NCBI GenBank assembly: GCA_020161245.1
Contig: JAIUOK010000002.1
Coordinates: forward strand, 81,983 to 145,982
DNA length: 64,000 bases
From: Actinomycetota bacterium
GTDB lineage: Bacteria; Actinomycetota; Actinomycetes; S36-B12; CAIYMF01
Direction of reading: 5' to 3'
In this document: piece after piece, positions 59,367-64,000 of the stretch
Layout: each line of letters opens with the position of its first letter
How positions within the stretch are numbered: the stretch's first letter is position 1
The notes under the pieces: model-generated
What the model was told of the DNA's origin: nothing
Seen by the model: only the letters and a program-made list of their open reading frames with translations
Databases searched by the model: none
Program-made: the position numbers and the translations under genes

Positions 59367-59539
59367 TCCGGCAGTCGGATCGAGCCCACTACCGCGCGAT
59401 CGGACCACCAGTTCGTGCGGCCCGTGGGCGAGGGCTGCGATCCGTTTCCGCCGTGGATGTATCAGGGCTGCCTGCTGCCGCTCTTCCTGGTGTCCCGATC
59501 CGGAAGCCGCCGCCCGGCGGCTCGGCAGCAGGAGCACCG
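59367..59539 (+). other. Intergenic region after the kinase gene
   Basis: 173 bases with no supported gene. It contains a short hairpin GCCGCC-GCCC-GGCGGC around 59505-59522 just before the small open frame at 59540. The gap to the next confident gene (59736) is 369 bases. Confidence 0.4.
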
Positions 59540-59735: not shown

Positions 59736-60278
59736 ATGTCCACCATCACCACCACCCCGGCACCGTCCCTGCCCCGTACGCCGCTGCTCGTCGGCGCCGG
59801 CGTCGTCGGCATCGCGGTCGCCGTCGCCATCGCCGTGCCGGCGCTCACCTCCCGCACCGGCACCACCGTCGTCCCCGCGCCGTCGGCCGGCGCCGTCGCT
59901 GTCCCCCGTGCCGGTGGGCCGGACGTCGCCGAGGCGCACGGGCTCGCGGCCCGCCTGCGCCTGGAGCGCCAGCTCGACAAGCTGGCGAAGACGGACGGCA
60001 ACGCTGCCGGCCTCGGCGTCGCGACGTCCGCCCTCGTGCCTGCCAGCATCGCGCTGGAGCAGGTGGGCGGGGGGCACCGGACCTACGCCTGGTCGCGGCC
60101 GCAGCCGCTCTCGTCGCACTCGTTCGACAGCCAGATCGGCGGCCGTCACAGCACGTTCGAGTACACCCCGTCGTCGACGCACACGGTCTGGAACGACCGG
60201 TTCGTGCCGCCGTACCAGGACCCGGCCTGGGGCGACGCCATCCAGAGGCACTACTTCGGGACCCGCGGCGGGGTGTGA
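59736..60278 (+). CDS. Single-pass membrane or secreted protein of unknown function
   Basis: 180-aa protein. One hydrophobic helix at about 14-40 (LLVGAGVVGIAVAVAIAVPAL) acts as anchor or uncleaved signal; the rest would be outside. A coiled-coil-prone segment (ARLRLERQLDKLAKTD, about 68-83) is followed by a Ser/His/Tyr-rich tail with SSHSFDSQIGGRHSTFEY and RFVPPYQDPAWGD. No cysteines. GAGAGGA precedes the ATG. A strong terminator after it isolates it from the sigma-CHAT operon. Function not recognised. Confidence 0.6.
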   Translation: MSTITTTPAPSLPRTPLLVGAGVVGIAVAVAIAVPALTSRTGTTVVPAPSAGAVAVPRAGGPDVAEAHGLAARLRLERQLDKLAKTDGNAAGLGVATSALVPASIALEQVGGGHRTYAWSRPQPLSSHSFDSQIGGRHSTFEYTPSSTHTVWNDRFVPPYQDPAWGDAIQRHYFGTRGGV

Positions 60279-60320: not shown

Positions 60321-60355
60321 AGACGGGCCGGGACGCGACGCGTCCCGGCCCGTCT
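60321..60355. terminator. Strong terminator before the sigma-CHAT operon
   Basis: 15-bp perfect stem (60321-60335 with 60341-60355) and a five-base loop, 42 bases after the preceding stop. It isolates the downstream operon transcriptionally. Confidence 0.8.
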
Positions 60356-60426: not shown

Positions 60427-61044
60427 ATGACCGGCTCAGCGCTCGACGGGCCCGTGGCTCCGCTGCTCGCAGCGGCGGCCGCCGGCGACGCCGCCGCCTG
60501 GGACACGTTGGTGGACCGGTTCTCCGGCCTGCTGTGGGCCACGGCTCGCAGCCACCGCCTCGGCCACAGCGACGCCTCGGACGTCGTGCAGACGACGTGG
60601 CTGCGGCTGCTGGAGAACCTGGCCCGCATCCAGGACCCGGAACGCCTCGGCGGCTGGCTGGCCACGGTGGCCAGGCGCGAGTGCCTGCTGGTGCTGCGGC
60701 GCGGCGACCGCGAGCCGCCCGTGCCTGCCGACGAGATGCTCGAGCGCATCCCCGACCAGCGCGGCCCGCTCGACCTCGCGCTCATCGAGGCCGAGCGCGA
60801 TGCGGCGCTGTGGGCCTGCTTCGACCAGCTCTCCGACCCGTGCCGCCAGCTGCTGCGCGTGCTCATGGCAGATCCCCCGCCTGCCTACGCCGACGTGGCG
60901 CAGGCCCTCGACATGCCGATCGGGTCCATCGGGCCGACGCGCTCACGCTGCCTCGGCAAGCTGAGGACACTGGCCCTGCAGAGCGGCGCGCTCGCACCGG
61001 AGGATGCGCCGGACACGGTCGCGGCGGGAGGTGGCGAGTCATGA
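60427..61044 (+). CDS. ECF sigma factor of the CHAT operon
   Basis: 205-aa ECF sigma factor. Region 2 (about 15-85): DAAAWDTLVDRFSGLLWATAR, SDASDVVQTTWLRLLENLARI, and GGWLATVARRECLLVLRR. Region 4 (about 120-185): LSDPCRQLLRVLMADPPPAYADVAQALDMPIGSIGPTRSRCLGKLR, split here around the HTH (ADVAQALDMPIGSIGPTRS). A short C-terminal extension of 20 residues follows. No zinc anti-sigma gene follows; instead the next gene overlaps by four bases (ATGA) and encodes a 151-aa unknown protein, then a CHAT protease. Control by the downstream products is the likely logic. Confidence 0.85.
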   Translation: MTGSALDGPVAPLLAAAAAGDAAAWDTLVDRFSGLLWATARSHRLGHSDASDVVQTTWLRLLENLARIQDPERLGGWLATVARRECLLVLRRGDREPPVPADEMLERIPDQRGPLDLALIEAERDAALWACFDQLSDPCRQLLRVLMADPPPAYADVAQALDMPIGSIGPTRSRCLGKLRTLALQSGALAPEDAPDTVAAGGGES

Positions 61045-61496
61045 GCACCGACGACGACCGCCTCGAGTCCCAGCTGCGCCTGGTGGCCGGGCAGGCGGAC
61101 CCTGTCCCCGAGCAGGTGGTGGCCGACGCCAAGGCGCTGTTCGCCCTCCGCGACCTCGACGCCGAGCTCGCCGAGCTCGTGGCCGACTCGCTGATCGACG
61201 AGCCCGCGGTGCTGACCCGGGCCCTCGTCAGCGACGTTCGCATGCTCTCCTTCGCCCACGACGACGTCACCATCGAGCTCGACATCGACACCGACCCCGT
61301 CACCGGCCGCATCTCCCTGCGTGGACTCGTTGCTGGCGCGACCGGCGAGCTGGTGCTGGTGCGCACGGGCCAGCGCCTCCCGATCCCGTTGGAGGACGGG
61401 CACTTCGCACTGTCGCTCGCTGTCGGCGGCCCGCTGCGTCTCGAGCTGCGGCTCGCCGACGGCCGCCGCATCACGACCGCCTGGGTCACGGTGTAG
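61041..61496 (+). CDS. Unknown protein between sigma factor and CHAT protease
   Basis: 151-aa soluble protein. N-terminal half helical and acidic (LESQLRLVAGQADPVPEQVV, then DAKALFALRDLDAELAELVA); C-terminal half predicted all-beta (VTIELDIDTDPVTGRISLRG, GELVLVRTGQRLPIPLEDGH, LRLELRLADGRRITTAWVTV). No cysteines. Not recognised. Translation is coupled to the sigma gene (ATGA) and it ends seven bases before the CHAT gene. Two roles fit: a non-classical anti-sigma factor, or the cleavable adaptor/substrate of the protease. The two-part architecture (helical arm, beta domain) suits either. Confidence 0.65.
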   Translation: MSTDDDRLESQLRLVAGQADPVPEQVVADAKALFALRDLDAELAELVADSLIDEPAVLTRALVSDVRMLSFAHDDVTIELDIDTDPVTGRISLRGLVAGATGELVLVRTGQRLPIPLEDGHFALSLAVGGPLRLELRLADGRRITTAWVTV

Positions 61497-61502
61497 CCGC
61501 CG

Positions 61503-64000
61503 ATGGCGGCAGCCGGCGACGGCCTCGTCGCCAGGGCCGAGGCCGCGCTCGACGCCGTCGGACGCGACCCGCACGCCGCGCTGCGCCTCGCCGACGACGT
61601 CCTGCGGATCCTGCCGTCCCGGCGGCGCTCCGACGAGGACGTCCGCGCCCTGGTCGTGGCGCAGCGGGCTGCTGGCCTCGCGCTCCGAGAGATCGGCGAA
61701 GCCGCCGCGGCACGGGCAAGGCTGGCCCAGGCCCACTCGGCGGCCCGGTCGCGCCACCTGACGTCGTTGGACGCCGAATGCCGCATCACCGGGGCCTTCC
61801 TGGCCTCGGAGGAGGGCAGGACCGGGAGAGCGCTGCGGCTCCTCGAGGGCGTCCCCGACGACGTCGACCCGGTGCTGGCGCTCCGGGCGGCGACGACCCG
61901 TGCCCTGCTCCTGCAGCGATCGGGGCGGCACGAGGACTGCCTCGTGCTGTACGAGCGGGCGCTCGAACTGGCACGCGTCGCTGCCGATCCGGTGCGGATC
62001 GCGCGCCTGCTCAACAACCGTGCGATGGCGCTGGCGTACCTGGGCCGGACGGAGGCAGCTCTGCAGGATCTGGAGTCGGCGCAGCAGCTGTACTCCTCGG
62101 CCGGCGCGGAGACCCTGGCCGCGCAATCGGTGGCCAACGCTGCCTGGGTCGCCGGGATGACCGGCGACGTGCCTGGGGCACTGGCTCTGTTCGACCGCAG
62201 CGAGCCGATGGATCCGGGCGACGGGCACGCCGAGATGTGGGCCGATCGCGCGGAGGTGTATCTGCGAGCGGGGCTCGCCGTCGATGGCGTTCGGGCAGCA
62301 CGCCAAGCTGTTCGCTGGCTGGACGGCAAGGGCTGGGATGCGTCTCAGGCGGAGGCGGAGATGCTCCTGGCTCGCTGCGAGCTTGAGACCGGCGCGCTCG
62401 ACGCGGCGAAGGAGAGAGCGCGCCGTTGCCGGAGGGCCTTCCAGCGGCAGCAGCGGGACGGCTGGGCGGCGCTGGCGTCGTACGTCCTGATCGTCGCAGC
62501 GATCCGCCAGGGGACCGCTCGTACGCAGGATGTCCTGGCAACCAGCGCGCGGCTCGCGGCCGCCGGATGGGGCCTCGCATCGCTGGACGTCGCCACAGCG
62601 GGCGCGGCTGCGGCTCAGACCGACGGACGCCCGGCCGCCTCGCGCGCACTCGCTCATGCCGCTGCAGCGCGGCCGCGCTCGCTGCAAGGGGCGGGCCGTC
62701 ACCATCTCGCAGCGGCGATCCTCTACGAGTCGGAGGAGCGTCCACGCGAGGCCCAGCGCGCGCTGGGGCGGGCGTTCCGCGAGATCGAGGCGCGTCGTGC
62801 GCTCATGGGCGCCTCGGACCTCAGGGCGCTGTCGTCGACCTTGGCGCGCGACGTCGTGGCTGCAGGGTCACGCATCGCTGCAGCACAACGGTCGCCGGCC
62901 GACGCCTTCGTCTGGGCCGAACGCGCTCGAACGGCGGCCTACCGCTACCGACCTGCGCTGCCGGCCGACGACGCCGAGCTGCTGCACCTTCTGACACGGT
63001 TGAGGTGGGCATCGCGCGCCGTCGAGGACGCACTGCTCGAAGGACGTCGCGACCCCGACGCTGCCGCCGAGGCGCGGCGCTGCGAGGGCCGGATCCTGCA
63101 GCTGTCACGACGAGCCCGGGGGTCGACGGCGCGCCCCGAGCCGAGCCTCGGGATGCTGCGCGAGCAGCTCCAGGACCGGGCCTTCGTCCACGTCGTGGTC
63201 ACCGGAGCGCGGCTGCAGTCGGTCGTCCTGCTCAGGCGTCGTGCTGTCGTCCATGACCACGGCCTGGCAGACGAGGCGGTGGCGCAGATCGACCGGTTGG
63301 CGTTCAGCCGACGGCGCGTCCTCCTCGGCGGACGGCCCGACGAGGATGCGAGGCGGCGTCTCGGCGATCTGCTGTGGGCGCCTCTGAGCGGGTCATGCAG
63401 GGACCTGCAGCTGATCGTGTCTGCCCCCCCGCAGCTGGGACAGGTGCCCTGGGGCTGCCTCCCAGGGTGGCGCGACCAGCCGGTGAACGTCGCCCCGTCG
63501 GCTCGGGCCTGGCTCGATGCAAACGGCAGGAGCCCCACCGGGACGGCCCTGGCCGCCATCGCCGGCGACGGCCTCCCGGGTGCGCTCGAGGAAGTGGCTG
63601 CCATCCTCGGCGCGCGACAGCCGGGGGCCGCGTCGAGTCCGCACCCCTGGACCGCCGGCGACGCTCTCGCGGCGCTGGCGGCATCCGACATCGCTCACGT
63701 GGCGGCGCATGCACGGCTGCGCACCGACAATCCGCTGTTCTCCAGCCTGCGCATGGCAGACGGCGACATCACCGGCTATGACATCGAGCTGCTCGCGAAG
63801 GTCCCGCACACGGTGGTGCTCTCCTGCTGCCGAGCGGGGCGGGACGCCGAGGTCGCACCGGGAGAGGCTCACGGCCTCGCGACCACCTTCCTTCGGCTGG
63901 GGTCGGCATCCGTGATCGCACCGGTGGAGGAGCTTCCTGACGGAGCGACGACCGATGTCATGACCGCGCTGCACGCCTCCTTGGCAGCAGGCTCGGCACC
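61503..64000 (+). CDS. TPR-CHAT caspase-like protease, 3'-truncated by the window
   Basis: 832 codons are visible and the frame runs off the end. Residues about 1-450 are helical TPR-like repeats (DPHAALRLADDVLRILPS; EDCLVLYERALELARVAADP; ARLLNNRAMALAYLGRTEAA; LALFDRSEPMDPGDG). The C-terminal part (from about 560) is a CHAT domain. Its catalytic His lies in DIAHVAAHARLRTD (about 736) and Cys in TVVLSCCRAGRD (about 776, in the LSACxTG position). GYDIELLAKVP and GLATTFLRLGSASVIAPV are CHAT hallmarks. Both catalytic residues are present, so it should be an active cysteine protease. ATG chosen seven bases after the preceding stop. It probably cleaves a partner when the TPR sensor is triggered. 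Confidence 0.85.
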   Translation, partial: MAAAGDGLVARAEAALDAVGRDPHAALRLADDVLRILPSRRRSDEDVRALVVAQRAAGLALREIGEAAAARARLAQAHSAARSRHLTSLDAECRITGAFLASEEGRTGRALRLLEGVPDDVDPVLALRAATTRALLLQRSGRHEDCLVLYERALELARVAADPVRIARLLNNRAMALAYLGRTEAALQDLESAQQLYSSAGAETLAAQSVANAAWVAGMTGDVPGALALFDRSEPMDPGDGHAEMWADRAEVYLRAGLAVDGVRAARQAVRWLDGKGWDASQAEAEMLLARCELETGALDAAKERARRCRRAFQRQQRDGWAALASYVLIVAAIRQGTARTQDVLATSARLAAAGWGLASLDVATAGAAAAQTDGRPAASRALAHAAAARPRSLQGAGRHHLAAAILYESEERPREAQRALGRAFREIEARRALMGASDLRALSSTLARDVVAAGSRIAAAQRSPADAFVWAERARTAAYRYRPALPADDAELLHLLTRLRWASRAVEDALLEGRRDPDAAAEARRCEGRILQLSRRARGSTARPEPSLGMLREQLQDRAFVHVVVTGARLQSVVLLRRRAVVHDHGLADEAVAQIDRLAFSRRRVLLGGRPDEDARRRLGDLLWAPLSGSCRDLQLIVSAPPQLGQVPWGCLPGWRDQPVNVAPSARAWLDANGRSPTGTALAAIAGDGLPGALEEVAAILGARQPGAASSPHPWTAGDALAALAASDIAHVAAHARLRTDNPLFSSLRMADGDITGYDIELLAKVPHTVVLSCCRAGRDAEVAPGEAHGLATTFLRLGSASVIAPVEELPDGATTDVMTALHASLAAGSA

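Follow-up and report, generated by a model that had tools for sequence, protein, structure and literature searches.

The window analysed here is a 64,000-nucleotide stretch from an Actinomycetota bacterium (assembly GCA_020161245.1, contig JAIUOK010000002.1, here C63). Its right end encodes an extracytoplasmic function (ECF) sigma factor, a 151-residue protein and a TPR-CHAT protease; the gene of an S8 subtilase very likely follows on another contig of the same genome. We propose that the four genes form a module in which the 151-residue protein serves as a cleavable anti-sigma adaptor, with the layout of Csx30 in type III-E CRISPR systems and without CRISPR. Judged from sequence, structure models and analogy, the probability of this reading is about one half. 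If it is true, a caspase-like protease controls transcription in roughly one in three of the genomes sampled from the class (125 of 393), and the CRISPR-linked protease-sigma circuit gains a common CRISPR-free relative or parallel.

The sigma gene occupies positions 60427..61044, the gene for the 151-residue protein 61041..61496 and the TPR-CHAT gene 61503..64000, all on the plus strand. The ATG of the second gene overlaps the sigma TGA in a 4-bp ATGA, and the TPR-CHAT open reading frame begins 6 bp past the TAG of the second gene and stays open to the window end. An earlier sequence-only reading had placed the three frames and their 4-bp and 6-bp junctions in the same way. The window stops at 64000 because contig C63 stops there, and it holds the first 832 of 856 protease residues. 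The full length is that of a database protein, P0094, which is 99% identical to the TPR-CHAT protein. The first codons of contig C87, from the same genome, encode the final 20 residues of P0094 and are followed by a stop codon. As judged from P0094, C87 is very likely the continuation of C63, with about ten bases missing between the two. On C87 the stop codon of an S8 subtilase gene, on the opposite strand, directly follows the CHAT stop, the two genes abutting tail to tail. The match of the C87 start to the end of P0094 thus gives the module the order sigma, 151-residue protein, CHAT and convergent S8. What lies past 64000, a point the sequence-only reading had left for a check, is the C-terminus of the protease and then the subtilase, a fourth partner beyond the trio described at that time. 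The genome contains one CHAT match and six S8 matches; one S8 gene is that at the C87 start.

The sigma factor is a protein of 205 residues. It matches Sigma70_r2 (E 7.5e-12) and the sigma70-ECF profile TIGR02937 (E 6.4e-17, over residues 24–181), in keeping with the ECF assignment made before. The group ECF54 (Casas-Pastor 2021 and Huang 2015, as cited in PMC8999054) is reported to have carboxypeptidase, subtilase and CHAT neighbours; PMC8999054, the one review found to treat ECF54, proposes control by proteolysis and gives the group as having no anti-sigma factor. Regions 2 and 4 of the window sigma are of ECF type. The three kinds of neighbour are present too, CHAT in the window, S8 on C87, and a CarboxypepD_reg domain in relatives of the 151-residue protein. 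Going by gene context only, the sigma factor very probably belongs to ECF54 or to a near relative of that group. We infer that the CarboxypepD_reg domain (PF13620) of these relatives is the "carboxypeptidase" of the published description.

The TPR-CHAT protein matches CHAT (PF12770, E 3.6e-14) as well as TPR families, and scores 53.3 bits with the clan CD CHAT profile against a curated cut-off of 24. The His/Cys dyad that had been called intact is formed by His736 and Cys776, and both residues are present in 67/67 aligned CHAT homologues. The AlphaFold2 (AF2) model of the protease has a predicted local confidence (pLDDT) of 91, and its closest folds are separase and Csx29. No segment of the protein is strongly hydrophobic (KD19 maximum 1.34). 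The S8 protein comprises 429 residues; its Asp154, His194 and Ser365 align in all 14 S8 proteins compared. The catalytic residues of both proteases are intact at the sequence level. The S8 protein also lacks a strong hydrophobic segment (KD19 maximum 1.47), suggesting a cytoplasmic enzyme. As a separate observation, CHAT matches in nine genomes (G149, G225, G287, G296, G317, G330, G394, G419 and G442) contain one in-frame stop codon, which may reflect decay, a start located past the stop, or fusion with a neighbouring frame in the match.

The 151-residue protein is predicted to consist of two helices, a disordered linker and a beta-sandwich. The AF2 model, built with 91 sequences, has a mean pLDDT of 85 and a predicted template-modelling score (pTM) of 0.53. 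Helices span residues 4–19 and 24–52, pLDDT in the linker falls below 50 at residues 57–61, and beta strands start from residue 65. The beta part resembles common beta-sandwich folds. The protein was previously said to belong to no known family. This holds for the window copy, which has no Pfam match at E <= 0.01, but not for its kin, since 6/35 relatives match PF13620 (CarboxypepD_reg), a domain that we take to be regulatory-like and not itself a peptidase. Within the linker, Arg60 is found in 168/170 aligned copies, with an entropy of 0.10 bit versus 1.5–3.0 bits at the other positions from 51 to 66. The residue after it is Ala, Gly, Ser or Asp in 160/168 copies. The arginine is also present in 20/20 loci from other classes. 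A residue kept so strictly where the chain is predicted to be disordered points to a short motif, a site of cutting or one of binding.

Conservation of the trio reaches well past this genome, as the sequence-only reading would require. The 151-residue family has 93 database homologues. From the listed matches of its profile in genomes of the class, 80 loci were picked for spread over genera. The sigma gene lies directly upstream on the same strand in 77/80 of them; within 6 kb of the 151-residue gene, CHAT is found in 67/80 and S8 in 57/80. All four genes occur together in 54/80 loci, and sigma plus the 151-residue gene only in 12/80. Pfam identified 13/20 of the neighbours examined as S8. Gene order varies, with CHAT or S8 placed upstream, downstream, inserted, or on the opposite strand. 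The 12 genomes of the loci with sigma and the 151-residue gene only were searched again for CHAT, and 11/12 have a strong match elsewhere (E 1.7e-78 or better).

Among 393 genomes of the class, the profile of the 151-residue family (A1, E <= 1e-3) matched 134 and the CHAT profile (A3, E <= 1e-60) matched 127. Both families occur in 125 genomes, the 151-residue family alone in 9, CHAT alone in 2 and neither in 257 (Fisher p 9e-89, relatedness uncorrected). Of the nine, five belong to genus g65, in which the remaining members have scores close to the CHAT threshold, and three carry weak matches to the 151-residue family (E 9e-5 to 9e-4). A phylum-wide search matched 32/296 genomes. In 20 loci taken from the 24 listed matches outside the class, sigma is adjacent in 16, 9 have CHAT and 8 have S8 within 6 kb, and all four genes are together in 8.

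Some arrangements differ from the common one. In L047 and L049 (family f23), the sigma and 151-residue genes stand without CHAT or S8, a DUF3071 gene lies upstream, and a full-length CHAT gene is found elsewhere in the genome. In two other loci (L064:4077-6755 and L076:7233-9803) the gene immediately after the 151-residue gene, on the same strand, encodes a LuxR-type regulator that has an AAA ATPase domain; CHAT in both is upstream on the opposite strand.

Partial correlations of distance matrices were computed over 60 loci having sigma, the 151-residue protein and a CHAT gene of over 600 residues. Sigma covaries with the helical half of the 151-residue protein (partial r 0.44) and not with the sandwich (-0.06), whereas CHAT follows the sandwich (0.37) rather than the helices (0.11). 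Sigma and CHAT also covary beyond the 151-residue protein (0.49). For the four pairs with the halves, a second computation gave 0.45, -0.07, 0.38 and 0.15, and BLOSUM distances gave 0.51, 0.03, 0.46 and 0.12. Drawing 35 loci 300 times with each distance measure never reversed the order, and it was kept in dereplicated sets (14 loci with Poisson distances, 12 with BLOSUM). In sliding windows, the switch between sigma and CHAT covariation falls at about residues 49–61. In the 46 loci where S8 could be added, S8 tracks CHAT (0.58) and shows no covariation with either half of the 151-residue protein (-0.08 and 0.00); S8 would thus act on or beside CHAT. The covariation is consistent with a chain running from S8 through CHAT, sandwich and helices to sigma. 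Contact is not proven by such correlations, from which shared ancestry is only partly removed.

A promoter-like motif, TGTATCA-N15-GCTC, is common to upstream regions of the sigma and S8 genes. In its relaxed form it has 27 matches in 25.6 kb of upstream regions versus 42 in the other 2.07 Mb of the same loci, both strands counted. These fall upstream of S8 in 15/47 regions, of sigma in 12/55 and of CHAT in 0/42. In the other-class loci the relaxed motif is present in 17/20, with 25 matches where roughly 10 are expected from background. The exact motif was counted in 30 genomes, hand-picked and mostly those of the loci from which the motif came; it has 44 matches in 22/30 genomes versus 31 for a reversed control, and is therefore barely enriched genome-wide. 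However, 16/44 of the exact matches lie within 5 kb of a module, where about 0.1 would be expected. The pattern was derived from other genomes, and the genome of the window contributed nothing to it. Its only exact match in this genome is at 59458..59483 of the window, on the plus strand, and lies upstream of the sigma gene by 0.94 kb; the reversed control likewise matches once in the genome. A near-match, TGTATCA-N15-CCTC, is found upstream of its S8 gene. The sigma factor of the module probably reads the motif.

From these data we propose a mechanism. The predicted N-terminal helices of the 151-residue protein would hold sigma, and its C-terminal beta-sandwich, likewise predicted, would bind to the TPR-CHAT protease. 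The TPR superhelix, through a ligand or partner, would activate the CHAT protease, which would cut the linker, probably at the conserved Arg60, and thereby free the sigma factor. The freed sigma could then autoregulate the module through the motif, with the S8 subtilase acting on or beside CHAT. The model makes specific predictions as to domain, residue (Arg60), catalytic residue (Cys776) and promoter. The suggestion, already made from the letters, that the 151-residue protein is the anti-sigma factor or adaptor is partly supported; with its predicted two-domain build and its half-specific covariation with sigma and CHAT, this protein is the best candidate. A wider statement is more tentative. 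ECF54-type modules may be a widespread CRISPR-free counterpart of the Csx29-Csx30-sigma circuit, in which a TPR-activated caspase-like protease cuts a two-domain anti-sigma factor at an invariant linker arginine, the freed sigma switches on its own module, and a cytoplasmic subtilase serves as the second protease of a cascade.

Several observations weigh against the adaptor model. Fold matches of the 151-residue protein are confined to residues 64–151, and no known anti-sigma fold is among them. Known Craspases cut at non-conserved sites (PMC11106740), so that a conserved arginine need not be the cut site. The catalytic His is followed by Ala in the window copy, against Gly in 58/60 locus copies. 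With dereplicated BLOSUM distances the CHAT contrast between sandwich and helices is small (0.34 versus 0.29, 12 loci). When S8 is conditioned on (46 loci), that contrast nearly vanishes (0.29 versus 0.26) and the sigma contrast between helices and sandwich shrinks (0.35 versus 0.14). In 3/80 loci the 151-residue gene has no sigma neighbour, and 4/20 other-class loci lack all three partners. Genome G166 carries sigma and the 151-residue gene, with no CHAT match anywhere in the genome.

The published view of ECF54 (PMC8999054) would have the neighbouring proteases degrade sigma directly, with no anti-sigma factor and the 151-residue protein as an accessory. Two proteases do accompany sigma in 54/80 loci, and the covariation of sigma with CHAT extends beyond the 151-residue protein (0.49). 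Yet the 151-residue gene directly follows sigma in 77/80 loci, 12 of them without either protease nearby, and it is the helical half of its product with which sigma covaries. PF13620 is presumably regulatory-like and no peptidase. We consider direct degradation unlikely. In a second rival, which also draws on the value of 0.49, the TPR-CHAT protein itself would be the anti-sigma factor and the 151-residue protein would tune it. There is a precedent in Myxococcus xanthus, where DdvA inactivates DdvS (PMC4374960), and the CHAT family profile matches a chain of PDB 8rot/8rw5 (E 9.6e-12), entries titled transmembrane anti-sigma factor DdvA with the chain named CHAT domain-containing protein. But CHAT is not near sigma in 13/80 loci while the 151-residue gene follows it in 77/80, the KD19 maximum of 1.34 is unlike that of a membrane protein, and the dyad is invariant (67/67). 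We regard this rival as improbable.

About as improbable, or very slightly less so, is that the 151-residue protein inhibits the proteases or is their substrate, has no contact with sigma, and is merely transcribed with the module by it. The three loci in which the gene has no sigma neighbour (L051, L061 and L077, with sigma sought by one query sequence) keep it directly after S8, CHAT covaries with the sandwich half, and in L168 the motif lies 61 bp upstream of a partnerless 151-residue gene, as for a target gene. Against this rival, the covariation of sigma with the helical half persists beyond CHAT and the other half (0.44), and S8 covaries with neither half.

Upstream of the sigma gene lie two further features. 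A gene for a 180-residue protein (59736..60278, plus strand) is downstream of the exact motif. The protein has one strongly hydrophobic segment, with a KD19 maximum of 2.53 at residue 16. It has no Pfam match at E <= 0.1, and no tblastn relative among the loci compared apart from the genome's own stretches. The gene is a possible target of sigma; whether it is a member of the module is uncertain. In two genomes of one genus (L150:2963-3358 and L152:2990-3361), the exact motif precedes, by 110 and 128 bp, the genes of small proteins that are nearly identical and have a hydrophobic stretch at the N-terminus. Between the 180-residue gene and sigma is a perfect GC-rich 16-bp hairpin (60321..60355, plus strand) without a T-run. 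The operon had been called terminator-isolated; the upstream hairpin is there, lacking the T-run, and downstream no operon end falls in the window.

The existence of such a module is not new, as the context of ECF54 is already published. The literature searches made found no experiment on such a module. New relative to the published context are the anti-sigma reading, the linker arginine, the covariation resolved by domain, the motif and the module as completed for this genome. Like ECF54 in Actinobacteria, the module joins an ECF sigma factor to CHAT, subtilase and carboxypeptidase-type neighbours; the account in PMC8999054 gives ECF54 without an anti-sigma factor, a role here proposed for the 151-residue protein. 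None of the three window proteins matches a PADLOC-DB 2.0.0 model at E <= 0.01, and S8 has only a weak subtilase match there (E 0.001). Caspase/EACC2 neighbourhoods also bring together a caspase-family peptidase, an ECF sigma factor and a TPR protein; their other constant parts are EACC2 and a DUF1822 TPR protein, and the section on them in PMC8195603 mentions neither the 151-residue family nor a subtilase. The DdvS-DdvA pair likewise couples an ECF sigma factor to a CHAT-domain protein. There the membrane CHAT protein is the anti-sigma factor, whereas no membrane segment is predicted for CHAT in the present module and sigma has a small protein of its own beside it.

A further likeness is to type III-E. 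According to PMC10028731, Csx30 binds CASP-sigma through its N-terminal domain, while the CHAT2 domain of Csx29 binds the C-terminal one, and the authors suggest that cutting Csx30 lifts the inhibition of sigma. The analogy drawn earlier with Csx29-Csx30-sigma is apt in layout. The absence of a CRISPR component also agrees with the genome, which is 99.89% complete and has no match to the RAMP family PF03787; the Cas7-11 (gRAMP) effector of Craspase is thus missing from it. The 151-residue family has 8 weak matches among PDB sequences, none of them a chain named Csx30, and Csx30 itself has about 565 residues versus 151 here. Both systems have a TPR-CHAT protease with a His/Cys dyad. Relative to the type III-E CASP/Craspase system, the present module adds an S8 subtilase, and its linker arginine is conserved, while Craspase cut sites are not (PMC11106740).

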